NCBI RefSeq assembly: GCF_014332515.1
Contig: NZ_VFSD01000025.1
Location: 1-64,000 of the forward strand
Direction: 5' to 3'
Length of the DNA: 64,000 nt
DNA from: Pontibacter beigongshangensis
GTDB taxonomy: Bacteria > Bacteroidota > Bacteroidia > Cytophagales > Hymenobacteraceae
The translations under genes were made by a program, and so were the position numbers. This document shows positions 33,265-49,482 of the stretch, one piece after another (the first letter of the stretch is position 1; every line of letters begins with the position of its first letter). A model generated the notes under the pieces. The model made no database searches, was not told the origin of the DNA, and saw nothing but the letters and a program-made list of their open reading frames with translations.

Positions 33265-36255
33265 ATGAAAAAAGTTTTACTGTTAAAACTTGCTCTGCTG
33301 CTATGTCTGCTACAGCAGGCAGTGGCGCAGGACAGAACAGTTACGGGAACAGTTACAGAGCAGGCAACTGCTAAGGCATTGCCTGGCGTGTCTGTAAGCG
33401 TGAAAGGCGCTGCAACAGGTACCAGTACAGATCAGGAAGGCAGGTTTAGCCTGGGCGTACCTGCTAACAGTGCCACGGAAAACCTGACCCTGATTTTTAG
33501 CCTGATGGGCATGGTAGCCCAGGAAGTGGTTGTTGGCGACAGCACAGTGCTTGCCATAGCTTTAGCCGCCGATGCAAAGCAACTCTCCGAAATAGTGGTA
33601 ACGGGCTACCAGACCCAGAACCGGCGCGAAGTAACCGGCTCGGTGGCCACCGTGGCAGGCCAGGAAGTTGCCCTGAACCCCTTCGGGTCTTTTGAGCAGG
33701 CGCTGCAGGGCAGGGCGACGGGCATGCTGGTGCAGGCCAACTCCGGTCAGCCTGGAGCCACTGCCAGTGTACTGATCCGGGGCAGAGGCTCTGTGTTTGG
33801 GGGGACTCAGCCTTTGTTTATTCTGGATGGCGTGGAAATTTCAGCTACCGATTTTTCTACCTTAAACCATGCCGATTTTGCCTCTTACACTATTCTGAAA
33901 GATGCGATCTCTACCTCACAGTACGGTTCGCGCGGAGCGAACGGTGTGGTGGTGATCACTACCAAAAAAGGAGTGGAAGGACCAACCCTCCTGGATTACC
34001 ATGTGCAGTACGGCTTCTCCACTATGCCCGAGAACAGGCACAGGGTCATGAACTCGCAGGAAAAGCTGGCTTATGAGCTGGCAAACGGAAACCCTTACGG
34101 CTGGGATGCTGATGACATTGCCCGCCTGTCGGCTATCAATACCAGTTGGGAAAAGGAACTGTTCAGGACCGGCCTTACCAAGAACCATACGCTGACCGCT
34201 TCTGGCGGCAACAACAAAACTACTTACCTCCTGTCGGGTTCGATCTTCGACCAGGAAGGCACGGTACGCAACACCGGCCTGGACCGCTACACAGGCAGAG
34301 CCAACATCGAGAGCCGGGCCGGCGATTTTACCTTTGGCCTCAACTCCACTTTTGGCTATTCTGAACTGGCAAACACCTACGAGGCCACCACATCTACCAA
34401 CGTGCCCCTGAATGCCATTCGCTGGAGCAACCCCTACGAGCCACCCTACGACCAAAACGGAAACTATAACCAGCCAGTGGCATCGTGGCAGCCCAACGCG
34501 CTCGAACTGATCTACGAAAATACCAGCCTCCGGCAGCAGCTGAAGGGGGTGGGCAATGTGTATGTAGCCTATAACGTGCCATTCCTGCCCGGACTATCTT
34601 TCAGAACAAGCTGGGGCGGCGACTATTTTTCTAACGAAACATCCGAGCTGCTAGACCCCACTACAGCTCCCGGCCGGGGAGTGCCCGGCGGCAAGGGGCA
34701 GTATAGCAGAGGCTACAACCGCTTTTTTGGGTATACCGGCACCACCTCGGCCTCATACGACCGGCGCTTTGGCTCAGACCACACGCTCCAGGTTTCCATG
34801 TTTAACGAAATCGTGAAAGGAGGGGGCAAGAACTTTGGTTTTACAGGCTACGGTCTGGGCGGACCCTTCGAGAACGAGGCTGGCATTACGCCGGGTACTG
34901 CTACGAACGGATTTATTCCGGCTGTAAATGGCGGGGGTAATGAGCAAGCGCTGCTGTCTTACTTTACGATGGTGCACTATGGCTACAAAAACAGGTACTT
35001 TGTAAGCGCAACAGGGCGTCGCGACGGGTCTTCCCGCTTTGGCCTCAACCACCAATGGGCAAACTTCGGCTCTGCAGGCGTAAGCTGGGTTGTGTCAGAA
35101 GAGGCTTTTATGGAAGCACTCACCGGGGTGTTTAACGAACTGAAGTTTAAGGCCAGCTATGGCACGTCCGGCAACCAGGCTGGTCTCGGCGATTTTCAGT
35201 CGAGGGAGTTGTATGGCCGTGCTGTGTACAATGGGGTGAGCGGTTTGCAGCAGGTGCAGCTGGAGAATGAGCAACTGAAGTGGGAGCGCCGCACTACCTT
35301 TAACACAGGCCTGGAACTGGCCACGCTGCAGGGCCGCCTGCGGGCTACCATCGAGTACTACCACGCCCTGACCTCCGATCTTTTCCTGAACCGCCAGCTC
35401 TCAAGAACCACCGGCTATACCAACTTGGTATCGAACGTCGGCACTTTACAGAACAGCGGCGTGGAGTTCTCGCTGGATGGCGACCTGATCAAAACGCAGG
35501 ACTTTACCTGGAGTGCCAACCTCAACCTGACCCACAACCGAAACAGGATCAACAAGCTGGTTGGCGAAGGCGACAACGATATCATCAGTGGGGTGTATAT
35601 GAACCGCGAAGGGGAGGCCCTGAACTCCTTTTATGTGGTACGATACGCTGGTGTAAACCCCGATAACGGCAATGCGCAGTACCTGAACCTGAATGGCGAT
35701 TTAACGGAGGTGTACAACCCTGCTGATCGGGTACTGGTGGGCTCTGCAGAGGTGCCCTTCTTCGGAGGCTTTGGGACCTCCCTTCAGTATAAAGGCTTTG
35801 CCCTCAGTACCTTCTTCACCTTTGTGCAAGGCAACAAGATATACAACGAAGACCGTACCAATATAGAGAACCCGTCTTTTGTGTGGGATAACCTGGCGGC
35901 CGCCATGCTGGACGAGTGGCGTGAGCCGGGGCAGGTTACTGCTATCCCGCGTGCCTCCCAGGTGCTGCGCACAGGCACCACACGGTTTATAGAAGAGGGC
36001 GATTTCCTGAGATGGCGCAACCTGATGGTGTCGTACACGCTGCCGGGAAATGTACTAAAAGCTGCCAGGCTCCGCCATGTGAGCGTTTTTGCGCAGGGGC
36101 AGAACCTGGCCACCTTCACCAAGTTCCTGGGCTTCGACCCGGAAGTCTCTACGCCAGCGCTGACAGGAGCCAGGTCCAGGGTGCCGGGCCAGTTATCGGG
36201 AGCACAGTACCCCGCTTTGCGCACGATTACCTTTGGGATTTCTGTTGGACTGTAA
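33265..36255 (+). CDS. SusC/RagA family TonB-linked outer membrane transporter
   Basis: A 996-residue TonB-dependent transporter. A signal peptide (1-21) leads to a carboxypeptidase-like regulatory domain (TVTGTVTEQATAKALPGVSV), then the plug domain with QTQNRREVTGSVATV and VLIRGRGSVFGGTQPLFILDG, and a 22-strand barrel to the end. It imports an oligosaccharide or other large nutrient with its lipoprotein partner SusD, encoded 16 bases downstream. Length is in the normal range. There is no glycoside hydrolase or regulator beside it, so the substrate is unknown. Confidence 0.95.
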   Translation: MKKVLLLKLALLLCLLQQAVAQDRTVTGTVTEQATAKALPGVSVSVKGAATGTSTDQEGRFSLGVPANSATENLTLIFSLMGMVAQEVVVGDSTVLAIALAADAKQLSEIVVTGYQTQNRREVTGSVATVAGQEVALNPFGSFEQALQGRATGMLVQANSGQPGATASVLIRGRGSVFGGTQPLFILDGVEISATDFSTLNHADFASYTILKDAISTSQYGSRGANGVVVITTKKGVEGPTLLDYHVQYGFSTMPENRHRVMNSQEKLAYELANGNPYGWDADDIARLSAINTSWEKELFRTGLTKNHTLTASGGNNKTTYLLSGSIFDQEGTVRNTGLDRYTGRANIESRAGDFTFGLNSTFGYSELANTYEATTSTNVPLNAIRWSNPYEPPYDQNGNYNQPVASWQPNALELIYENTSLRQQLKGVGNVYVAYNVPFLPGLSFRTSWGGDYFSNETSELLDPTTAPGRGVPGGKGQYSRGYNRFFGYTGTTSASYDRRFGSDHTLQVSMFNEIVKGGGKNFGFTGYGLGGPFENEAGITPGTATNGFIPAVNGGGNEQALLSYFTMVHYGYKNRYFVSATGRRDGSSRFGLNHQWANFGSAGVSWVVSEEAFMEALTGVFNELKFKASYGTSGNQAGLGDFQSRELYGRAVYNGVSGLQQVQLENEQLKWERRTTFNTGLELATLQGRLRATIEYYHALTSDLFLNRQLSRTTGYTNLVSNVGTLQNSGVEFSLDGDLIKTQDFTWSANLNLTHNRNRINKLVGEGDNDIISGVYMNREGEALNSFYVVRYAGVNPDNGNAQYLNLNGDLTEVYNPADRVLVGSAEVPFFGGFGTSLQYKGFALSTFFTFVQGNKIYNEDRTNIENPSFVWDNLAAAMLDEWREPGQVTAIPRASQVLRTGTTRFIEEGDFLRWRNLMVSYTLPGNVLKAARLRHVSVFAQGQNLATFTKFLGFDPEVSTPALTGARSRVPGQLSGAQYPALRTITFGISVGL

Positions 36256-36271
36256 AAACTGATTTGAAGAA

Positions 36272-37768
36272 ATGAAATTACGTAACTTACTACTGGGGCT
36301 GGGCCTAGGCTGTGCGATCATCTTCCCGGCCTGTAAAGATATTATTGAAGTAGAGCCCGAATATCAGAAAGCTGGTTCTCCAGGCGGCTTCTTTTCCTTA
36401 GATGATCATGAGTTTGCACTCACAGGTGCCTATGCCCTCTTTAGAGCACCGGGATATTACGGGATCGGCATGTACAACGCCGGCACCTGGGCCGCGCTAC
36501 CCGATATGATGGCCGATGACCTGGTACAGACGAAGGAGGACTTTGGCAATTGGGCCGCACAAACTAACTGGACCTATGCAACAGATGAGGCCAACATAGA
36601 AATAGCCTGGGTAGCCGCCTACGCAGTAATTGCGCAGGCCAACCTGACGTTGCGGAACATTGAGCAGTACTCGGCCACTAATGCCAAGCGTGTAAATCGC
36701 ATAAAAGGGCAGGCACTGGCCATCAGGGGCATGGCACATTTCGACCTGCTGCGGTTCTGGGGCGAAAGCTACGACCGCAACTCCACTGCCAACGGCGTGC
36801 CCTACAAAACTACCGTGAACGTAGAAGATCTGCCCACCCGCCTGACAGTGAAAGAAACCTACGACAATATCTTTAGAGACTTGACAGCGGCTGATACCTT
36901 GCTGGGAGATGTAGACAGGACAATCAACGCACCCACTAACCGGGCCTACATCGACCAGATAGCTGCCCGTGCCCTGTTAGCGCGCCTAAACTTGTATGTA
37001 GAAGATTTCGAGGCAGCCGAAAGCTATGCATCGCAGGTAATCGCAGCGCTGGATTTGGCAGATAGAGATGCCTTTGCAGCTATATGGAAAGACAATTACC
37101 CCGCTGATAAAGAAGTGATCTGGAAAGTGACTTTCAGTCCTGGCGAAGGGCAGGCAGGGACAGGTATCCACATTGGTAGCGCAAACCTGAACCTGTTCCG
37201 GCCAGCCAGACACCTGGAGGACATGTTCAACAAAGCAAACGACATCAGGTATGCAGCCTATTTTGGAGGCAGAGAGGCAGGGGCCAGTGCCGCTGTTTAT
37301 CCGGGAAACACCGCTCCCGGAAGCAGCTCCAGAAGAATTGTGACCAAGTACCTGGGCCGGGGAGAAGCCCTGGACAACCTCGTGGACTGGAAAGTGCTCA
37401 GAACCGGAGAGATGTACCTGATCCGGGCGGAGGCCAGAGCAAGGCAGGGGGGAGCTAAACTGAACACCGCCCTAACAGACTTACAAACGCTTCGCGCCGC
37501 CAGAATCAAAGGCTTTGCGCCCACCGTTTCGATTGGGCAACAAGCTTTGCTGGATGCTATTGCCCTGGAACGCCGGAAAGAACTGTTTGCGGAAGGCCAC
37601 CGTTGGTTCGACTTAAAACGGACCATACGCACCGTCAGCAGAGCAGACGTAGAGAATGCCGCCGCCAGTGAGACCCTGGTACCCGCCGCCCGCGAATGGA
37701 CCTGGCCAATACCGCAAGGTGAAATAGACGTGAACAGGAACATAGCCCAGACAGAAGGGTATAAGTAG
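36272..37768 (+). CDS. SusD/RagB family nutrient-binding lipoprotein
   Basis: A 498-residue surface lipoprotein. The signal MKLRNLLLGLGLGCAIIFPAC ends at the lipidated Cys21. The SusD helical (TPR-like) fold is shown by QANLTLRNIEQYSA, KGQALAIRGMAHFDLLRFWGE and the C-terminal AIALERRKELFAEGHRWFDLKR, which is a strong RagB/SusD signature. It caps the SusC barrel and binds the ligand. It is cotranscribed with susC and followed by a terminator built from the dispersed repeat. Confidence 0.95.
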   Translation: MKLRNLLLGLGLGCAIIFPACKDIIEVEPEYQKAGSPGGFFSLDDHEFALTGAYALFRAPGYYGIGMYNAGTWAALPDMMADDLVQTKEDFGNWAAQTNWTYATDEANIEIAWVAAYAVIAQANLTLRNIEQYSATNAKRVNRIKGQALAIRGMAHFDLLRFWGESYDRNSTANGVPYKTTVNVEDLPTRLTVKETYDNIFRDLTAADTLLGDVDRTINAPTNRAYIDQIAARALLARLNLYVEDFEAAESYASQVIAALDLADRDAFAAIWKDNYPADKEVIWKVTFSPGEGQAGTGIHIGSANLNLFRPARHLEDMFNKANDIRYAAYFGGREAGASAAVYPGNTAPGSSSRRIVTKYLGRGEALDNLVDWKVLRTGEMYLIRAEARARQGGAKLNTALTDLQTLRAARIKGFAPTVSIGQQALLDAIALERRKELFAEGHRWFDLKRTIRTVSRADVENAAASETLVPAAREWTWPIPQGEIDVNRNIAQTEGYK

Positions 37769-39795: not shown

Positions 39796-40500
39796 TTGTC
39801 GTACCTTATAGGAAAAAGAGCTTTAGTATCTGGCGGGGGCTCGGGCATTGGTTTGGCCATAGCCGGAAAGCTCTCTGAGGCAGGCGTACAAACCGTCATT
39901 GCCGATATTCTGCCAGTTAATGATTTGCCTCCGCAGACGCTTTCCTTTTTGTGCGATGTAGCCTCCGGTCCGCAGGTGGACACCCTTTTTGCAGAGCTGA
40001 TAGGGCAGGTCGGCCAGCCAGATATTTTAGTTTGCTGCGCCGGCCGCGGCATCCACGAGAAACTGGCGGAGGGCGACCCGGAGAAGTGGCAACAGATCAT
40101 CAATACCAACTTAACGGGAGCCTTGCGGCTGGTGCGGGCCTTCGTGCCCGGCATGATTGCCGCCGGGCAGGGCCATGTTGTCTTCTTGTCTTCTGTAGCT
40201 GCGCGGCACGCCTACCCTTACGGAGGCATTTATGCAGCCTCCAAAGCCGCCCTCGAAGTGGTGGCCGAAACCCTGCGGCAGGAAGTGCTACCTGCCATCC
40301 GGGTAACGGTGGTGGCGCCCGGCGTAACCGACACCTCCTTTTTTGAAAATACTGTTTCCGGATCTCACACGGCAGCTGACATTGGATATGGCGCACTTAG
40401 CCCTGCAAATGTGGCAGACGCAGTGCTGTTTGCCTTGCGACAGCCAGCAGGAGTGTCAGTGAACCAGATTACGATCAGGCCAGATAGCCAGCCATTTTAA
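39796..40500 (+). CDS. SDR family oxidoreductase (first gene of the glycan cluster)
   Basis: A 234-residue classical short-chain dehydrogenase. [18 protein letters not shown] is the cofactor motif, CCAGRG is the NAG-like motif, and the active site is [22 protein letters not shown] (Ser, Tyr and Lys in order). No ATG is available; TTG at 39796 gives the usual four to six residues before the first strand, and no good ribosome site precedes it, so the start may be damaged. It opens a same-strand gene run to 48.7 kb. Substrate unknown. Confidence 0.85.
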
Positions 40501-40526
40501 CCATACCTTCTAAACAGAATGCAACT

Positions 40527-41273
40527 ATGAAACAACGAATCTTGATTACAGGTGGCGCCGGCTTTATCGGCTCTCATCTGGCAGACGAACTACTGAGCCA
40601 TGGCTACGAAGTAAGAGCGCTCGATAACCTCTCGGAGCAGACCCTGGCTGGAAAACCTTTTCCGGGGGAGCCGCTGGGTTGCGCCATGAACATCTTCCGC
40701 CGGAGCGACATCAAAGCCGGGCAGACCGTGGCGATCCTGGGCATCAGCTTTCTGGGGGCGCTGCTGGTGCAACTGGCAAAAAATGCCGGTGCCAGAGTTA
40801 TCGCCATATCGCAGCGTGATTTTTCTTTAGAGGTGGCAACAGCCTGTGGAGCCGATGAAGTGATAAAAATGAACGACCACTGGCAGATTATCGAGCAAGT
40901 AAAAAGCCTCACCAGCGGCGCCTTCTGCGAACGTGTAATAGAGTGTACTGGCAAAGAGTGGCCCCTGAACCTGGCGGGCGAACTGGCAGCAGAGCGGGGA
41001 AGGCTGATCATAGCCGGTTTCCACCAGGATGGCATGCGGCAGGTAAACATCCAGCTCTGGAACTGGCGCGGCCTCGACGTGATAAACGCGCATGAGCGCG
41101 ATCCGCAGGAATACATTAAAGGAATGCAGGAGGCTGTGGAGGCCGTGGCAAGTGGGTCCTTACGGCCAGATGCCCTCTATACCCATACATACAACCTCGC
41201 AAGCATACATGAAGCCTTTGACCACCTTACCAACCGCCCCGACGGATTTGTAAAAGCCCTTATCACATTTTAA
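40527..41273 (+). pseudogene. Chimera: epimerase N-terminus fused to an alcohol dehydrogenase C-terminus
   Basis: Residues 1-38 ([20 protein letters not shown] ... [10 protein letters not shown]) are the start of a UDP-sugar epimerase/dehydratase. From about residue 40 the sequence becomes the cofactor-binding half of a zinc-type alcohol dehydrogenase ([50 protein letters not shown]). The join is near nt 40641. The epimerase lacks its last 280 or so residues, the dehydrogenase its first 130 or so with the zinc site, as an in-frame deletion of roughly 1.2-1.3 kb would give. The product keeps one Rossmann fold but probably no activity of either parent. Confidence 0.8.
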
Positions 41274-41275
41274 CC

Positions 41276-42328
41276 ATGCACCAAACCACACCCGACAATA
41301 CCCAAACAACCACAGCACTTCCATCAGCAAAAGCATCTGGCACCAGACCGAAATTAGGTTTTTTAGGCGTGGGCTGGATCGGCCGCAACCGTATGGAAGC
41401 CATTGTTAAAAACAAAGTGGCCGATGTAGCCTGCATTGCCGATGTAGTGCCGCAGAACACAAGCGAGGCGCTGAAAAGTGCTCCTGCTGCCGTAGCTGTA
41501 AACTCGCTCGATGCCATGCTGGAAAGAAGCGACCTGGATGGTGTGGTTATTGCCACGCCGAGCGCTTTTCATGCAGAGCAGAGCATTCTGTCGCTGGAGG
41601 CCGGGAAGGCAGTGTTCTGCCAGAAGCCTTTGGGGCGCAACGTGGAGGAAACAAGACGCGTAATGGAAGCTGCCCGTGCCGGCAATAAGCTGTTAGGCGT
41701 TGACCTCTCGTATCGGCATACGGCTGCTATGCAGCAGGTGTACCAGGTGGTGCAATCCGGGGAGTTGGGGCATGTCTACGCCGTGGAGCTGGTTTTCCAT
41801 AATGCCTATGGGCCAGACAAAGCCTGGTTTTACGAGCCGAAGCTTTCGGGCGGCGGCTGTGTGATAGACCTGGGCGTGCACCTGGTGGACCTGGCCCTGT
41901 GGTCACTTAATTTTCCGAGGGTGAAGGAGGTGCAAAGCAGCTTGTTTGCCAAAGGAAAACCAATTGGCATGGCGGAGGGTAAGGTGGAAGATTATGCTAC
42001 CGCCAACATAACCCTGGGCACTGGCGCCAACATCTCTCTGAGCTGCTCCTGGAACCTGCCGGCGGGGCAGGAGGCCATTATCAGCGCTACTTTTTATGGC
42101 ACGAACGGCGGGGTGGCCTTCAAAAATATGAATGGCTCGTTCTACGACTTTGTGGCAGAGCGCTATCACGGTACAAAGGCAGAGCGGCTGTGCTCCCCGC
42201 CAGACGAATGGTCGGGCAGAGCAGGTGTGGTATGGGCCGAACGCCTAGCCAGCGGCCAGGGCTTCGACCAGCAGGCGGAAGAGTTTGTGAAAGTAGCAGA
42301 AGTGTTAGACAAGATTTACGGTAGATAA
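41276..42328 (+). CDS. Gfo/Idh/MocA family oxidoreductase
   Basis: A 350-residue NAD(P)-dependent sugar dehydrogenase-type protein. The nucleotide-binding strand is KLGFLGVGWIGRNRMEAIV, the conserved VFCQKPLGRNVEE holds the EKP-like Lys (QKP here), and GGGCVIDLGVHLVDLALW supplies the second-domain His. The first 20 residues are Thr-rich and probably disordered. It sits two bases after the chimera and seven before the GT4 gene, so it belongs to the same transcript. It probably oxidises or epimerises a sugar for the cluster product. Confidence 0.9.
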   Translation: MHQTTPDNTQTTTALPSAKASGTRPKLGFLGVGWIGRNRMEAIVKNKVADVACIADVVPQNTSEALKSAPAAVAVNSLDAMLERSDLDGVVIATPSAFHAEQSILSLEAGKAVFCQKPLGRNVEETRRVMEAARAGNKLLGVDLSYRHTAAMQQVYQVVQSGELGHVYAVELVFHNAYGPDKAWFYEPKLSGGGCVIDLGVHLVDLALWSLNFPRVKEVQSSLFAKGKPIGMAEGKVEDYATANITLGTGANISLSCSWNLPAGQEAIISATFYGTNGGVAFKNMNGSFYDFVAERYHGTKAERLCSPPDEWSGRAGVVWAERLASGQGFDQQAEEFVKVAEVLDKIYGR

Positions 42329-42335
42329 CAAGATT

Positions 42336-43448
42336 ATGGAAGTACAGCATCCATCAAAGATATTGATGACGGCAGACACCTTAGGCGGTGTCTGGACATA
42401 TGCCATAGAACTAATCAGAGCCCTGAACGATTTTGGTGTTCAGGTAGCACTGGCCACCATGGGGGCACCACTAAGCGAGGAGCAGCAGGAGGAAGTAAAA
42501 AAGATCAGCAACCTGACTGTGTATGAGAGCGAGTATAAGCTCGAGTGGATGGAGAACCCCTGGGAGGACCTGGCCAAAGCCGGGGAGTGGTTGCTGCGCC
42601 TGAAAGAGGAGGTAAAGCCAGACATCATTCACCTCAACAACATGGCCCATGGAAACCTGGACTGGGGAAAACCTGTGGTGGTAGTGGTGCATTCCTGTGT
42701 GCTGTCGTGGTGGCGGGCGGTGAAGGGGGAGGAAGCTTCCTCAGCGTGGAACCAGTACCACGAAACCATCAAAGCCGGCCTTCATGCGGCCGACATCGTA
42801 GTGGCCCCTACCCAGTCTATGCTGCACCAGGCGGAGGATCTGTACGGCCCCTTTAAGCAGAGCACGGTTATTTACAACGGGCGCGGGCAGCAGCTTTTCC
42901 AGTTCGGCCGCAAGGAGCCGTTTATTTTCAGCATGGGCCGTGTGTGGGATGAGGCCAAAAATATAGCCATGCTCGCGCACATCGCCTCGGACCTGCATTG
43001 GCCTGTGTACATTGCCGGCGACGACAAGCACCCCACCACAGGGGAATCAGTGGATTTGGAGAACGTGCACTTCCTGGGGCAGCTGACCGCCAGTGAAGTG
43101 ACCGACTGGCTCTCCAGGGCCTCCATCTACGTCCTGCCCGCCAAGTATGAGCCCTTTGGCCTGACTATTCTGGAAGCCGCCATGTCTGGTTGTGCCCTGG
43201 TGGTAGGTAAAACGGATAGCCTGACCGAGATCTGGGGAAATGCCACCAAATACGTGAATCCCAACGATGCCGATGAGCTGCGCGACACCATCAACAGCCT
43301 GATCGACGATGAGTTTACCCGCAACATTATGTCGTGCCGCGCTGTAAAGCGGTCGCATGGCTACAGCGCCGACCATATGGCCCAGGATTACAGCCACATC
43401 TACCGCCAGCTCCTTCGGTTTAAACTGCCGGAAGTGTTGGTGGAATAA
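42336..43448 (+). CDS. Glycosyltransferase, GT4 family
   Basis: A 370-residue GT-B transferase. The N-terminal half begins LMTADTLGGVWTYAIELIRAL (the Gly loop), and the C-terminal half carries FSMGRVWDEAKNIAMLAH and the donor-binding EPFGLTILEAAMSG (E-x7-E). It transfers a sugar from a nucleotide donor with retention of configuration. No TM segment or signal is seen, so it acts at the cytosolic face. It is between the Gfo/Idh gene and the CgeB-like genes. Confidence 0.92.
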   Translation: MEVQHPSKILMTADTLGGVWTYAIELIRALNDFGVQVALATMGAPLSEEQQEEVKKISNLTVYESEYKLEWMENPWEDLAKAGEWLLRLKEEVKPDIIHLNNMAHGNLDWGKPVVVVVHSCVLSWWRAVKGEEASSAWNQYHETIKAGLHAADIVVAPTQSMLHQAEDLYGPFKQSTVIYNGRGQQLFQFGRKEPFIFSMGRVWDEAKNIAMLAHIASDLHWPVYIAGDDKHPTTGESVDLENVHFLGQLTASEVTDWLSRASIYVLPAKYEPFGLTILEAAMSGCALVVGKTDSLTEIWGNATKYVNPNDADELRDTINSLIDDEFTRNIMSCRAVKRSHGYSADHMAQDYSHIYRQLLRFKLPEVLVE

Positions 43449-43509
43449 GAAAGACCCAGACCTGAGAGTGTCCTGGCAGGCAGCAGGAAAAGCGAATTGT
43501 TACAGCAGT

Positions 43510-43538
43510 AATTATTTGAATGAAATTGGCCTTCCGAA
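43510..43538 (-). repeat. ATNNAT/CCGG interspersed repeat, copy 17
   Basis: AATTATTTGAATGAAATT then GGCCTTCCGAAG, followed by TTTCTGCTGATGCTGCTG. Central dinucleotide CA on the minus strand. Forms an inverted pair with copy 18. Confidence 0.78.
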
Positions 43539-43638
43539 GAACTTTTTCTGCTGATGCTGCTGATTGGTTCCCAAAACACGCACAGGTCTGGAAGACGCTG
43601 TGAGGTTTGAGGAGGAGGAGCACAGCGACAACCAGCAT

Positions 43639-43667
43639 CTGGAAGGCCAAAATCATTGAAATAATTC
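43639..43667 (+). repeat. ATNNAT/CCGG interspersed repeat, copy 18
   Basis: CTGGAAGGCC then AAAATCATTGAAATAATTC. Central dinucleotide GA. Faces copy 17 across 100 bases. Confidence 0.78.
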
Positions 43668-43695
43668 ACTTAATCACTCAATCAAAATTAAATAA

Positions 43696-44822
43696 ATGAA
43701 CATCGTCCTTTTCTACCACTCCATCCTCTCCGACTGGAACCACGGCAACGCGCATTTCCTGCGGGGGGTGGTGCGGGAGCTGCAGGAGCGGGGGCACCGG
43801 GTGCAGGTGTATGAACCTCAGAACGGCTGGAGCCTGCAGAATCTTATTGAAGGGTATGGCCAGGAGAAGCTGGAGGAACTACAGGAATACTACCCCGGCA
43901 TCAGTACCAACTTCTACACCCTGGATAGTTTGGACCTGGATGAAGTGCTGCAGGAAGCCGATCTGGTGCTGGTGCATGAGTGGAGCGAACACGAGCTGGT
44001 GAGACGGGTTGGGGAGCACCGGGTAAAAAGCAATTACAAACTGCTCTTTCACGACACACACCACCGTGCGGTGACAGAGCGCGAAAGCATGGCCCGTACG
44101 ACCTTACCCACTACGACGGCGTGCTGGCCTTTGGTCAGGTAATACGCGACCTGTACCTGCAGGAAGGCTGGACCTCCCGCGCCTGGACCTGGCACGAAGC
44201 CGCAGACACCAGCGTGTTCTACCCGCACAAGCAAACCCAAGATGAGGGAGACCTGGTCTGGATTGGCAACTGGGGCGATGAGGAGCGTACGGCCGAGCTG
44301 CACGAGTTCCTGATAAACCCGGTAAAGGAGCTGGGGCTGAAAGCGAAGATATACGGCGTGCGTTACCCCGATCATGCCCGCAAAGCATTGGCCGATGCGG
44401 GTATCGAGTATGGTGGCTGGTTGCCCAACTACAAAGCAGCCGAAGAATTTGCCAAACACAAAGTAACGGTGCACGTGCCGCGAAGACCTTATGTGGAGAC
44501 GCTGCCGGGCATCCCGACCATCCGCCCGTTCGAGGCCATGGCTTGTGGCATTCCGCTTATTTCTTCGCCCTGGGATGATGCTGAGAACTTATTCACTCCC
44601 GGAAAAGATTTCCTGGTGGCCCGAACCGGCGAGGAGATGAAGCAGCACCTGCAGACCATTCTGAATAATAAAGCCACAGCAGAAGCAATAGCCAGCCATG
44701 GTCTGCAAACTATTCAAAGTCGCCATACCTGTGCCCACCGTGTAAACGAGCTGGAGCAGGTGTGCCTGGAGCTGGGAATAGCAGCCTCCAAAGTAACTCC
44801 AACGCAAACTGCCACTGCATGA
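43696..44822 (+). pseudogene. CgeB-like glycosyltransferase, frameshifted
   Basis: The first 133 codons read a CgeB-type N-terminus (FYHSILSDWNHGNAHFLRGV, then HDTHHRAVTERESMA). The family sequence continues in another frame as YDLTHYDGVLAFGQVIRDLYL to the TGA at 44820-44822, with PFEAMACGIPLISSPWDD as the donor-site block. One base is missing around 44091-44096 (between MA and YDL). Repairing it gives about 375 residues. Unless this is a sequence error or programmed frameshift (no slippery heptamer is apparent), the gene is dead. Its stop overlaps the next start as ATGA, so coupling to the next gene is intact. Confidence 0.8.
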
Positions 44823-45925
44823 AAACCAAAAAACTTGACATAGCCTTCTTCGGCTCCAGCCTCGTATCGGCCTACTGGAATGGTGCTGCTACTTATTACC
44901 GTGGCATTGTGCGGGCGCTGCACGATCGGGGCCACCACGTTACCTTCTACGAACCCGATGCTTACGACCGCCAGCAGAACCGCGACATGCCCGACCCCGA
45001 CTGGGCGACAGTGGTAGTATATAAGGCTACGGCAGAAGCCGCCTCCCGCTGTCTGGAAGCAGCAGCCAAAGCCGACATCATTGTTAAAGCCAGCGGAGTG
45101 GGTGTGTTCGATGAGTTGCTGGAGCGGGAGGTGCTGCGTTTTCAGAATGAAAAGACACTTGTGCTTTTCTGGGATGTGGACGCCCCTGCTACCTTAGACC
45201 GTGTGCACAACAACTCCCAAGACCCCTTCCGGCAGCTCATTCCGCAGTACGACATGGTACTGACCTACGGTGGCGGCCAACCAGTGATAGAAGCGTACGA
45301 AGCATTAGGCGCTAAAAAGTGCGTGCCAATCTACAATGCCCTGGACACAGCCACTCACCACCCGGTCGTTTCCGAAGAGCGTTTTGCCTGCGACCTGGCT
45401 TTCCTGGGCAACCGCCTGCCTGACCGTGAGGCACGTGTAGAAGAGTTCTTTCTGAACCCTGCTGCCGCCACGCCCGGCAAAACCTTTATGCTTGGCGGCA
45501 GTGGATGGGGCGACAAACCCATGAGCCCGAATGTAAAGTACATGGGCCACGTCTACACCAAAGATCACAACGCCTTTAACTGCACTCCCAAGGCTGTGCT
45601 CAACATCAGCCGCGAGAGCATGGCCCGCTACGGTTTCTCGCCGGCCACGCGCGTGTTCGAGGCAGCCGGAGCCGGAGCCTGCATTATTACCGACTACTGG
45701 GAAGGCATCGACTTTTTCTTTGAACCGGAGAAGGAGATTCTGGTGGCGAAAAGTGGCACCGAAGTAGACGCTATCATGGCCGATCTTACAGCCGAAAAGG
45801 CAATGGCCGTTGGCAAGGCTGCCTACCGCAAAGTGCTCTCTGCCCATACCTACAACCACCGCGCAGAGCAGCTGGAGCAGCTGCTGTATACCAAGATAAG
45901 GCAACAGGTTAAGGTGCTAGTGTAG
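44819..45925 (+). CDS. CgeB-like glycosyltransferase
   Basis: A 368-residue GT-B type protein of the CgeB family (named for the spore surface protein CgeB of Bacillus subtilis). It begins KLDIAFFGSSLVSAYWNGAA, has LVLFWDVDAPATLDRV in the middle, and the donor-site block SPATRVFEAAGAGACIITDY. The start at 44819 overlaps the upstream stop, and is preferred to an upstream ATG at 44762 whose 19 extra residues are not family-like. It is the second of three related genes and is intact. It probably adds a sugar to a surface glycan or lipid. Confidence 0.86.
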   Translation: MKTKKLDIAFFGSSLVSAYWNGAATYYRGIVRALHDRGHHVTFYEPDAYDRQQNRDMPDPDWATVVVYKATAEAASRCLEAAAKADIIVKASGVGVFDELLEREVLRFQNEKTLVLFWDVDAPATLDRVHNNSQDPFRQLIPQYDMVLTYGGGQPVIEAYEALGAKKCVPIYNALDTATHHPVVSEERFACDLAFLGNRLPDREARVEEFFLNPAAATPGKTFMLGGSGWGDKPMSPNVKYMGHVYTKDHNAFNCTPKAVLNISRESMARYGFSPATRVFEAAGAGACIITDYWEGIDFFFEPEKEILVAKSGTEVDAIMADLTAEKAMAVGKAAYRKVLSAHTYNHRAEQLEQLLYTKIRQQVKVLV

Positions 45926-45930
45926 GGTTA

Positions 45931-46149
45931 TCAGAATCAGGATTTACAGGATGATAGGATGAACAGGATTGTCTGCATCAGGAATATAATTCTGTCAGAA
46001 CCCGAAAAGCCAGCATGAGAGAATGTGCAGCATACGTTTTCTTCTTTTGTCATTCTGGAATAATCTTGTGATAAAGCAGCGAAAGCAGCAGCTACTGGTG
46101 AAAGACCTCATCCTGTTCATCCTACCATCCTGTAAATCTTGATTCAGAC
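45931..46149. repeat. Inverted repeat of the GGATTTACAGGAT type
   Basis: Arm 45931-45973 contains AATCAGGATTTACAGGATG and AGGATGAACAGGAT. Arm 46104-46149 is its inverted partner (CAAGATTTACAGGATGG and AGGATGAACAGGAT on the minus strand). The arms flank 130 bases and sit inside the CgeB gene run. Similar words occur at 13648-13736. Sequences like this are known to me as frequent intergenic repeats in Bacteroidota. Confidence 0.75.
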
Positions 46150-46327
46150 AAATTCGGCAGGAGAAATTAGTCTTCCTGGACCAGAAGAACCCGGATTCTC
46201 CTAACATCTAAATGACAAAAGGCGGAAACAACAAAAAAGCAAAGGCTGTTGGCACAGACACTCACCGGTCTGAAAGACGCCGTGAAGTTTTCTAACAATC
46301 AACAATTAGCAATTCAGCAATTAAAAA

Positions 46328-47404
46328 ATGAACATCGTTATACTAGGTTTATCCATAACCTCCAGCTGGGGAAACGGCCATGCCACCACCTTCAGGGGGC
46401 TGGTGCGGGAGCTGAACAACAAGGGGCATCGGGTGCTTTTTCTGGAGCGGGATGTGCCCTGGTACGCCAACAGCCGCGACCTCCCAAACCCCGATTTCTG
46501 CCAGACAGTACTGTACACTTCCTTAGATGACCTGAAGCAGCGCTTTACAGAGCAGGTGCGCGAAGCCGACTTGGTGATGGTGGGCTCGTTTGTGCCTGAA
46601 GGGGTGCCGGTAGGAACGTGGGTGGTACAGACGGCGCAGGGCATCAAAGCCTTTTACGACATCGACACGCCGGTGACGCTGGCAAAGCTGGAGCGGCAGG
46701 ATTTTGAGTACCTGCATCCGCGCCTCATCCCGCAGTATGACCTGTACCTGTCCTTTACCGGTGGCCCTACCCTGGACCTGCTGGAGCAGCATTATGGCTC
46801 ACCCATGGCAAGAGCGCTTTACTGCTCCTTCGACCCCATGCTGTACTATCCGGAGGACCAGGAGGTGCAATGGGATTTAGGCTACCTCGGCACCTACTCC
46901 GACGACCGTCAGCCCCCGCTCGAAAAGCTGATGCTGGAAGCTGCACGGCAATGGCCAGAGGGGCGGTTTGTAGTGGCTGGTCCGCAATATCCCAATACGG
47001 TGCAGTGGCCTGCCAACACGCAGCACATTCATCACCTGCCACCAGCAGCGCATCGCAGTTTCTACAACAGCCAGCGCTTTACGCAAAACATCACGCGCGC
47101 CGATATGATAAAAGCCGGCTACTCGCCCAGCGTGCGCCTTTTCGAGGCAGCAGCCTGTGGCACCCCCATCATTTCAGACTATTGGGAGGGGCTGGATACG
47201 CTTTTCACCTTTGGGCAGGAAATACTGGTAGCCTATTCTGCCGCCGATACGTTAAAGTTCTTACAGGAGCTGCAGGAGGAGGAGCGGAAGGCCATAGGGG
47301 AACGGGCCAGGCAGAAGGTGCTCACGCAGCACACCGCCGCCCACCGGGCACAGGAACTGGAGAACTATGCCCGGGAACTGATGACGCTGACAGTTAAAGG
47401 ATAA
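46328..47404 (+). CDS. CgeB-like glycosyltransferase
   Basis: A 358-residue CgeB-family GT-B protein, related to the two genes upstream. It starts NIVILGLSITSSWGNGHATT, contains AFYDIDTPVTLAKLE, and has the donor block SPSVRLFEAAACGTPIISDYW. It is intact and about 400 bases after the second CgeB-like gene, from which it is separated by the inverted repeat at 45931-46149. A start at the listed ATG is supported by the family-like N-terminus. Confidence 0.87.
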   Translation: MNIVILGLSITSSWGNGHATTFRGLVRELNNKGHRVLFLERDVPWYANSRDLPNPDFCQTVLYTSLDDLKQRFTEQVREADLVMVGSFVPEGVPVGTWVVQTAQGIKAFYDIDTPVTLAKLERQDFEYLHPRLIPQYDLYLSFTGGPTLDLLEQHYGSPMARALYCSFDPMLYYPEDQEVQWDLGYLGTYSDDRQPPLEKLMLEAARQWPEGRFVVAGPQYPNTVQWPANTQHIHHLPPAAHRSFYNSQRFTQNITRADMIKAGYSPSVRLFEAAACGTPIISDYWEGLDTLFTFGQEILVAYSAADTLKFLQELQEEERKAIGERARQKVLTQHTAAHRAQELENYARELMTLTVKG

Positions 47405-47453
47405 TCAAAATAATGGTGCTTCTTGATTCACTGGGTATTGACTATATAACTTT

Positions 47454-47828
47454 ATGAACCTTGCCGTCGCCATCAGTACCATCAGCGGATTTTTTCTGCT
47501 TGTCGGATGTCTAGCTTCGTGCGCCGTCATGCAAGGCCCTGCCTTTAGCGGTGTTACTATTCATTATGTAGGAGAAAAGCTGGCGGCAACAGATACTGTA
47601 GCAGTTTTTTATGATGAGAAGGATGTGGTGTGGCCGCATAAGGTCATAGGCAGAATGACAAATGATATTGTGTTGCAGTACGAACCTGAAAACGTAAAAC
47701 GCATGATGCAGGAAAAGGCCAAAGAGGTGGGAGGAGACGCCATTATCATTACTGACCTGGCACCGTACCGGACCCCAAACGAATTAGATAAAATCGTGTT
47801 AAAAGCAATTGTTATAAAGCATTTATAA
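47454..47828 (+). CDS. Small exported lipoprotein-like protein of unknown function
   Basis: A 124-residue protein. The N-terminal hydrophobic stretch ends in LASCAVMQG, a good lipobox with Cys as the lipidated residue. The mature part has VAVFYDEKDVVWPHKVIGRM and AKEVGGDAIIITDL, which recalls short YbjQ- or DUF-type lipoproteins in which a GGDA loop is common. No enzyme motif is seen. It lies between the last CgeB-like gene and the methyltransferase pseudogene. Its part in the cluster is unknown. Confidence 0.7.
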   Translation: MNLAVAISTISGFFLLVGCLASCAVMQGPAFSGVTIHYVGEKLAATDTVAVFYDEKDVVWPHKVIGRMTNDIVLQYEPENVKRMMQEKAKEVGGDAIIITDLAPYRTPNELDKIVLKAIVIKHL

Positions 47829-47840
47829 AGAAGTTATTAC

Positions 47841-48671
47841 ATGGAGATACAGCAGGAGATTGAACAACTGGGGCCCTGGTTCCATAACATACACCTGCCA
47901 GGTGGCGAGCAGACGGCCCCCAACCACTATTTAGCAGATTTCCCAGCTTTTAAGTAGCGGCAGTTGGAACACGCAATTCCAACAGACTTATCTGGCTGGC
48001 ATGTATTGGATATTGGCTGCAACGCCGGCTTTTATTCCATAGAGCTGGCAAAGCGCGGCGCACAGGTGCTCGCTATAGACGTAGACCCGCACTACCTGAA
48101 GCAGGCAGCCTGGGTGGCCCAACAGTTCGGGATGGAGGACAGGCTGGAACTGAAACAGATGCAGGTGTACGACCTGGCCCGCCTCGACCGCCAGTTCGAC
48201 CTGATCTGGTACATGGGCGTGCTCTACCACCTGCGCTACCCGCTGCTCTCGCTCGACATACTGGCGCAGAAGGCCAGCCACCTGATGGTGTTCCAGACGC
48301 TGACCATGCCCGGCAACGAAACCGGGGATGTGCCGGAAGATTTCGGGGTTAACGACCGGCAGCCAACGCTGGAGGCGCACTGGCCCAAGATGGCTTTTAT
48401 CGAAAAGAAAATGGCCGGCGACTTAACCAACTGGTGGGCTCCTAACCACACCGGCGTAGAAGCCATGCTGCGCACCTGCGGGTTTAAGGTAATAGAGCGG
48501 CCGGGGCACGAGCTGTACATTTGCCAGGTAGACGAACAGCTCCGACAGCACCAGCACTGGAACCAGTCGGAGTACTTATCGGCGGTGGGGCTGGCCTGGC
48601 AGGATACTGTGCAGGATAAAATCGCACAAAAAAACGCCTACATGGTATCGGGCTCCGGTAGTAAAAAGTAA
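47841..48671 (+). pseudogene. SAM-dependent methyltransferase with a premature TAG
   Basis: ATG at 47841 opens MEIQQEIEQLGPWFHNIHLP and runs to an in-frame TAG at 47955-47957 (codon 39, after ADFPAFK). The frame continues without interruption as a class I methyltransferase (VLDIGCNAGFYSIELAKRGA, LIWYMGVLYHL) to 48671. Relatives carry Trp at this place by my recollection (FPxxKW), so TGG changed to TAG is likely. It resembles the TIGR04290 methyltransferase family that I recall near glycosyltransferase genes. Translation may restart at TTG 47964 but would miss the N-terminal segment. Confidence 0.78.
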
Positions 48672-48921: not shown

Positions 48922-49482
48922 ATGCCTCCTAAAATAGAACCCTGGAAAACACTTAAATCTGAAATGGTTTTTGAGCACAGATGGTACAAGTTGCGCCGCG
49001 ACCATGTAGAGCTGCCTAACGGGCACGAACTCGACGATTATTTTGTAAGCGTACGGCCCGATGTGGTGGTAACTTTTCCGCTTACCCCCGACAACCAGGT
49101 TATTTTTGTGCGACAGTACAAGCACGCCGCCGGCGAGATTCTGATAGAACTGCCAGCCGGTGTGATAGACGAAGGCGAGGATGTACCCATGGAAGCCGCC
49201 AAACGGGAGCTCCTGGAAGAAACCGGCTACGCCTCAGAGGAGGCAGAACTCCTGCTGGAAGTAATCGACAATCCGACCAAAGACACGAATAAGATTTACT
49301 ATTTCCTGCTCCGCAATGTAAAAAAGGTAGCAGCCCAAAGCCTCGACGTGTCGGAAAATATTGAAGTACTGACTATTCCGCTGCAGGAAGTGGAGGCACG
49401 CATCCTGTCAGGCGACATAAAGGTGTCGGGAACGGTGGCGCTTTGCCTGCTGGCGCTGCACAAGCTGGAAGCAGAGAAGTAA
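48922..49482 (+). CDS. NUDIX hydrolase, ADP-ribose pyrophosphatase-like
   Basis: A 186-residue cytosolic pyrophosphohydrolase. The Nudix box reads GVIDEGEDVPMEAAKRELLEETGY and matches GX5EX7REUXEEXGU exactly. The upstream block VFVRQYKHAAGEILIELPAG is typical of ADP-ribose pyrophosphatases (NudF-like). Length is within that group. Substrate remains uncertain among ADP-ribose and related nucleotides. Its stop codon TAA is the first three bases of repeat copy 19. Confidence 0.92.
   Translation: MPPKIEPWKTLKSEMVFEHRWYKLRRDHVELPNGHELDDYFVSVRPDVVVTFPLTPDNQVIFVRQYKHAAGEILIELPAGVIDEGEDVPMEAAKRELLEETGYASEEAELLLEVIDNPTKDTNKIYYFLLRNVKKVAAQSLDVSENIEVLTIPLQEVEARILSGDIKVSGTVALCLLALHKLEAEK

Follow-up and report, generated by a model that had tools for sequence, protein, structure and literature searches.

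The CgeB protein of Bacillus subtilis takes part in spore-surface glycosylation, and it is a glycosyltransferase of a type that we take to be represented by the family PF13524. Two NCBIfam entries, TIGR04290 (meth_Rta_06860) and TIGR04295 (B12_rSAM_oligo), are hypothetical equivalogs without a function, one of them having 'oligo' in its name. The DNA analysed here (the window; 64000 nucleotides, positions 1 to 64000 of contig NZ_VFSD01000025.1, RefSeq assembly GCF_014332515.1) is from Pontibacter beigongshangensis, a member of the Bacteroidota with a genome of 5.75 Mb in 75 contigs, and it includes, at 39796–48671, a run of sugar-modifying genes with three of the PF13524 type (CgeB1, CgeB2 and CgeB3). 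This run is a decayed copy of a gene cassette that is real, conserved and apparently undescribed as a whole. The cassette methyltransferase passes the TIGR04290 cut-off, and a radical S-adenosylmethionine (radical-SAM) protein found in other copies passes that of TIGR04295. Unlike the B. subtilis system, the cassette groups three to four old CgeB paralogs in organisms that do not form spores, and as the two were compared via the domain family alone, the link to Bacillus spores drawn in the preliminary description holds at the level of the PF13524 domain and no further.

The preliminary description had proposed that the genes form one system, and in other genera and phyla the three CgeB genes are indeed surrounded by the same set; the gene order also recurs elsewhere and is thus not unique to this strain. 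In intact loci of Pontibacter, the order is an NAD-dependent epimerase (EPI1, ~372 amino acids [aa]), a 681–692 aa fusion of a GH39-like domain and a second epimerase (EPI2), a zinc-type alcohol dehydrogenase (ADH, ~336 aa), a Gfo/Idh/MocA oxidoreductase (Gfo), a GT4 glycosyltransferase, CgeB1, CgeB2, CgeB3, the methyltransferase and a NUDIX hydrolase, though starts are rough and two loci were without one end gene in the stretch compared. Above its cut-off, TIGR04290 is found in 22 of 37 Pontibacter genomes, and a search of 22 genomes from other genera gave no such match. With a threshold of E 1e-40, it was found in only one of 395 evenly drawn genomes of the phylum, namely that of the window, and the cassette is therefore sparse in the Bacteroidota.

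Relatives were nevertheless found far outside this phylum. The best 80 of at least 586 confirmed relatives in named genomes, a selection biased to close relatives of the query, represent at least nine phyla (Pseudomonadota 25, Bacteroidota 21, Acidobacteriota 9, Myxococcota 8, Verrucomicrobiota 5, Thermodesulfobacteriota 3, Cyanobacteriota 2, Gemmatimonadota 2, Fibrobacterota 2, and 3 without an assigned phylum). Among the 53 named loci whose flanks are complete, tblastn detected CgeB3 in 53, CgeB1, GT4 and EPI2 in 52 each, CgeB2 in 51, EPI1 in 50, the GH39-like domain in 44, the TIGR04290 methyltransferase in 41, ADH in 36 and Gfo in 30. A search of plasmids returned 148 records with relatives of CgeB3, dominated by Sinorhizobium and Rhizobium and followed by Roseomonas, Azospirillum, Paracoccus and others, and 133 records for the methyltransferase. 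The CgeB3 proteins of Pontibacter and of plasmid copies share 55–63% identity in many cases. The patchy spread, the plasmid copies and the similarity across phyla together suggest that the cassette has been spread by horizontal transfer. The laboratory strain Sinorhizobium meliloti 1021 carries an intact copy on pSymB.

Of the new findings, the strongest and most useful is that the cassette carries one or other of two redox modules. EPI2 as well as GT4 was detected in 72 of the named or annotated loci; of these, 17 carry TIGR04295 without ADH or Gfo, 38 carry ADH and Gfo, 9 ADH alone and 8 neither, and no locus carries both modules (Fisher p = 8e-11, kinship ignored). The radical-SAM gene is located between EPI2 and GT4 in 17 of 17 loci, and ADH/Gfo occupy the same slot in 36 of 47 and lie nearby in the other 11. 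Tistrella and Azospirillum are among the hosts of the radical-SAM type. A quick tree built from four joined glycosyltransferase alignments calls for a minimum of nine module changes among 64 rows. Genome-wide, TIGR04295 was detected in 3 of 38 genomes, which are exactly the three with a radical-SAM cassette, and in none of the 35 others, the search having taken in 29 of the 45 named ADH/Gfo-type genomes. Neither ADH nor Gfo was found anywhere in the 16 radical-SAM genomes, and both were found in all eight genomes with a cassette of the 'neither' type (ADH at 48–72% identity). Four Roseomonas genomes showing ADH alone at the locus also have Gfo. Of the other genomes with ADH alone, L095 has a weak match to Gfo (32%) and L110, L131 and L139 have none; Gfo may be dispensable, or these four genomes may be incomplete.

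A further sample comprised 385 genomes of Alphaproteobacteria, the class to which Skermanella aerolata belongs, and CgeB3 was found in 16, TIGR04295 in 13 and ADH in two. All 13 TIGR04295 genomes and both ADH genomes fall within the 16 with CgeB3, none has both and one (G645) has neither. The genome at the centre of the sample (G483) was picked for having the cassette and is one of the two with ADH; when it is set aside, 15 cassette genomes are left, of which 14 have a single module (13 radical-SAM and one ADH). Taken alone, this sample gives weak evidence of exclusion (p = 0.025 if the centre is counted), and what it mainly shows is that TIGR04295 and ADH are tied to the cassette. In the second of the two ADH genomes, the ADH copy (G833:C1:2258664-2259626) has an in-frame TGA. 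The cassette thus seems to require either two dehydrogenases or one B12 radical-SAM enzyme, never both. This gives a handle on TIGR04295, as the radical enzyme probably does what the ADH/Gfo pair does, or supplies an alternative to it.

The cassette in the window is of the ADH/Gfo type and contains no TIGR04295 gene. Its features, and those next to it, are as follows.

39796–40500, + strand: SDR oxidoreductase of 234 aa, TTG start, appears intact (adh_short, 136 bits)
40527–40640, + strand: remnant of EPI1, first 38 codons
40641–41273, + strand: remnant of ADH, C-terminal part, fused in frame to the EPI1 remnant
41276–42328, + strand: Gfo/Idh/MocA oxidoreductase of 350 aa, open
42336–43448, + strand: GT4 glycosyltransferase of 370 aa, open
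43696–44822, + strand: CgeB1 (PF13524), frameshifted, with one open reading frame (ORF) at 43696–44142 and a second frame ending at 44822
44819–45925, + strand: CgeB2 (PF13524) of 368 aa, open
45928–46151, no strand: palindromic repeat element between CgeB2 and CgeB3, with 42-nucleotide arms that are 90% complementary
46328–47404, + strand: CgeB3 (PF13524) of 358 aa, open
47454–47828, + strand: small lipoprotein-like protein, no family match
47841–48671, + strand: TIGR04290 methyltransferase with an in-frame TAG at 47955–47957 and an ORF after the stop at 47964–48671
48922–49482, + strand: NUDIX hydrolase, downstream, present in 21 of 22 genus loci and judged to be outside the cassette

All genes named in the preliminary description are present, with coordinates that fit ORF ends (39796–40500 for the SDR gene and 47964–48671 for the methyltransferase), and it is their state that had been overlooked. 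What was described as an epimerase/alcohol dehydrogenase fragment (40527–41273) exists, and was formed by a deletion that fused two genes which are separate in relatives. Relative to the Pontibacter locus L081, ~3.5 kb is missing, joining the start of EPI1 to the back part of ADH, and the rest of EPI1, the ~685-aa GH39-like/epimerase gene and the N-terminal part of ADH have been lost at the junction. Of the 22 genus loci, only that of the window lacks the GH39-like/epimerase gene, and the lost GH39-like part was not found anywhere else in the window genome, where the matches are to the epimerase half only, at no more than 33% identity. The three CgeB genes were correctly recognised, CgeB1 being split by a frameshift near 44090–44110. 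The methyltransferase is likewise present, its frame starting at 47841 and broken by the TAG codon; read through the stop it scores 336.8 bits on TIGR04290 (cut-off 300), whereas the ORF after the stop scores 274 bits, below the cut-off. The frame is open in all 21 other genus copies above the cut-off, and only the window copy has an internal stop. As encoded in the window genome, the pathway is unable to run. A test of the open genes for relaxed selection gave a mixed picture: the divergence of GT4 and CgeB2 in the window is above the median of every other genome, but that of the neighbouring NUDIX gene is too, and CgeB3 and Gfo do not stand out in this way. What looks like a separate, second reduction within the genus was seen in Pontibacter oryzae, where part of Gfo, GT4 and CgeB3 are all that is present (L092:8075-11053).

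The outer genes of the run are less constant. Relatives of the SDR protein with at least 40% identity were found in 15 of the 80 named loci, and all 15 are in Bacteroidota. The small lipoprotein gene, which had been counted as a member of the set, does not belong to it, being kept in 4 of 22 genus loci (that of the window included), in none of the 80 named loci and in none of the ten annotated plasmid loci. The genome contains 33 matches to the palindromic repeat at 45928–46151, that copy included, and a second palindromic intergenic repeat is located inside the operon at 43510–43666. An Rfam search gave no match, and scans for promoters and terminators did no better than chance. A SusC-like and SusD-like pair, as judged from the translations, lies directly before the run at 33265–37768.

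The PF13524 domain scores 131, 134 and 135 bits in the three CgeB proteins of the window (Pfam gathering score 25 bits), and these are the only strong PF13524 genes in the window genome (132–137 bits in the genome search), the next best scoring 43 bits. In a quick tree of 104 CgeB proteins, taken from 32 chosen loci and ten copies of a fourth type and labelled by best BLAST matches, CgeB1, CgeB2, CgeB3 and CgeB4 are each set apart from the others by a branch with support of 99–100, with a program warning of long branches meeting between CgeB1 and CgeB2. CgeB1 to CgeB3 are thus old paralogs travelling together. CgeB4 is encoded beside a sugar nucleotidyltransferase in 16 of the 16 loci that bear it, among 90 (e.g. 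L072:2206-4119). CgeB3 alone has no sequence relative in the PDB. Its model (predicted local distance difference test score [pLDDT] 93.6) has a GT-B fold for which MshA is the best match, followed by PglA, sucrose-phosphate synthase and the methylmannose polysaccharide mannosyltransferase. A profile match of CgeB3 to designed TIM barrels was taken as chance.

For the enzymes missing from the window, relatives were examined. Against solved structures, EPI2 of a relative scores 288–296 bits to CDP-tyvelose 2-epimerase and 130 bits to the next, and is thus nearest to that enzyme by sequence, its substrate being putative. The GH39-like domain belongs to no Pfam family, and its model (pLDDT 88.5) has PslG as the best fold match (E 4e-15; next 2e-9). 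Among 84 copies, 56 are fused to EPI2 and 28 are free. A catalytic-type pair of Glu residues is present in all 28 free copies, and the two residues are found in 48 and 50 of the 56 fused copies, the columns differing in 8 and 6 fused copies by alignment, where misalignment is possible. Fold and Glu pair predict a PslG-like glycosidase, the gene for which is deleted in the window. UDP-glucuronate decarboxylase is encoded in 12 of the 80 named and 9 of the ten annotated loci, making a pentose donor plausible in the hosts concerned.

From these data we infer, with a probability of about 0.55, that a mobile, cross-phylum carbohydrate-biosynthesis cassette, decayed here, directs the assembly of a short O-methylated oligosaccharide in the cytoplasm. 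EPI1 and EPI2, with UDP-glucuronate decarboxylase in some hosts, would supply unusual nucleotide sugars, and the GT4 enzyme would start the chain, to which CgeB1, CgeB2 and CgeB3, as cytoplasmic GT-B enzymes, would contribute one sugar each in a fixed order. The redox module would alter one position, either through ADH and Gfo/Idh (oxidation, then reduction with inversion) or through the B12 radical-SAM enzyme; the TIGR04290 enzyme would O-methylate, and the PslG-like glycosidase, fused to EPI2 or free, would trim or edit. The product is likely a short O-methylated hetero-oligosaccharide or glycoside, kept inside or exported by general machinery. A narrower version, in which the product belongs to a new class of soluble O-methylated hetero-oligosaccharides serving as stress-protective solutes, with one required stereo-inversion performed by ADH and Gfo/Idh or by the B12 radical-SAM enzyme, must be considered speculative. 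That the product acts in drought or osmotic stress is a guess prompted by the hosts and by the neighbouring genes, which on some annotated plasmids include genes for trehalose synthesis (Agrobacterium), Ku and LigD (Tistrella) and manganese catalase (Sphingobium). That a set of four glycosyltransferases is fixed across at least nine phyla suggests a single conserved molecule and not a variable coat. The product, if found, would put a name to a common but unseen bacterial metabolite, and the copy on pSymB of S. meliloti 1021 makes the question testable.

Several observations weigh against this reading. Stretches with a hydropathy above 1.9 occur in 18 of 65 ADH, 2 of 62 Gfo and 1 of 101 GT4 proteins, counted in the matched stretches and not in whole ORFs. 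A MalK-type ABC ATPase family is found near 5 of 90 cassettes, and pyruvyl-transferase and FrhB-like genes, which occur in exopolysaccharide clusters, in 3 of the 80 named and one or two of the ten annotated loci. PglA works on a lipid carrier, and its second place in the fold list of CgeB3 makes a lipid-linked product possible. The stress role is based on neighbours in few annotated plasmids. The frameshift and the stop could in principle be assembly errors, the deletion hardly.

The preliminary description had tentatively placed the product at the surface, and a surface glycan or glycolipid could be made if the glycosyltransferases used a lipid-linked acceptor and general machinery encoded elsewhere flipped and attached the product. 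The PglA match, the pyruvyl-transferase and FrhB-like genes near a few copies, and the resemblance of the GH39-like domain to PslG of the Psl exopolysaccharide system all fit this explanation. However, the core proteins appear soluble and have few hydrophobic segments, with none above 1.9 in 14 of 17 families checked, and a Pfam scan of the 22 neighbour families found in at least four loci recognised no flippase, polymerase or priming transferase, the rest of the genomes not being searched. These families include regulators, the MalK-type ABC ATPase, a PIG-L-type deacetylase, UDP-glucose dehydrogenase, DUF1003, DUF892 and several without a Pfam family. The fusion of most GH39-like domains to a nucleotide-sugar epimerase argues for the cytoplasm, and a glycosyltransferase set fixed in nine phyla is unlike surface polysaccharide loci, which are typically variable in gene content. 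The surface explanation is not favoured, and we consider it unlikely. An inositol-based pseudo-oligosaccharide with a mycothiol-like start (inositol phosphate synthase, glycosyltransferase and phosphatase) is also doubtful. Genes for inositol-3-phosphate synthase lie near 25 of 90 cassettes, for a histidine phosphatase near 27 and for both near 17; the acceptor of MshA, the closest fold to CgeB3, is inositol phosphate, and Gfo and ADH score to inositol and inosose dehydrogenases among others. On the other hand, the stretch examined contains no gene for inositol-3-phosphate synthase in 65 of 90 loci, and PF07994 was found in 9 of 16 cassette-bearing genus genomes and not in the other 7, where the short enzyme type, which scores weakly (20.5 bits), could be missed. 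The idea that inositol is obligatory is weakened by these loci and genomes.

A different division is posed by the modules, which might perform different reactions and yield two product types, for example epimerised or reduced as opposed to C-methylated, so that their exclusion would reflect the swapping of chemotypes. The repeated module changes on the tree favour this, as does the fact that many B12 radical-SAM enzymes are methyltransferases, and the explanation is a serious contender, if held at somewhat below even odds. However, both modules occupy the same slot, all cassette genomes checked genome-wide but one have one module, as expected of one required step, and the best NCBIfam match of the radical-SAM protein after its own family is to BchE, a cyclase and not a methylase. 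It is very improbable that the genes belong to separate known pathways and stand together by chance. SDR, epimerase, ADH, Gfo and GT4 are each common families, but the same set surrounds CgeB1 to CgeB3 in nine phyla, and among the 385 genomes TIGR04295 and ADH are confined to those bearing the cassette.

Other genes were observed near some cassettes. In four Rufibacter loci (L088–L091), a 3-keto-disaccharide hydrolase gene is nearby, and a Pycsar effector-type protein (PycTM) is encoded near the cassette in four Rufibacter loci (e.g. L090:17277-17867). A protein of 580–670 aa is encoded near 16 of 90 cassettes (L064, L066, L101, L107, L120, L121, L124, L143, L144, L145, L150, L152, L154, L156, L157 and L160). 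No Pfam family matches it, for two members not even at a threshold of E 5, and by eye it presumably consists of a phosphoribosyltransferase-like part followed by a kinase-like part.

The statement in the preliminary description that no clear counterpart is known stands in so far as the open-access literature search found no paper on the cassette. In open-licence PMC, no paper on TIGR04290, TIGR04295 or COG4641 was found. Judged by title, the B. subtilis papers on CgeB and glycosyltransferases are spore papers, and papers retrieved with PF13524-type terms include, from the parts seen, some on Acinetobacter outer core loci. A search with putative locus tags of the Sinorhizobium cassette retrieved no paper, and such tags are absent from the passages searched in PMC2912261 and PMC3596328.

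Compared by names and scores only, the TIGR04290 and TIGR04295 entries do not include the whole cassette, the module exclusion or the fusion gene. PslG, a GH39 enzyme of the Psl exopolysaccharide system of Pseudomonas aeruginosa, is the best match of the GH39-like domain by fold and by profile, and the two Glu motifs align, but identity is ~17–18%, and the domain is here mostly fused to one resembling CDP-tyvelose 2-epimerase. The start of mycothiol synthesis by MshA and the mycobacterial methylmannose polysaccharide, a cytosolic methylated sugar, resemble the cassette in the GT-B fold of CgeB3, which is most like that of MshA and near that of the methylmannose mannosyltransferase, in the presence of a methyltransferase and, for mycothiol, in the inositol phosphate synthase of some cassette hosts; at 11–16% identity and with another gene set, this compares only how they might work. 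BchE and AcsF are known from chlorophyll biosynthesis to replace each other. While the equivalence of the two modules is one that we infer from genomes only, the cassette resembles that pair in the mutual exclusion of a B12 radical-SAM protein and oxidoreductases unrelated to it.

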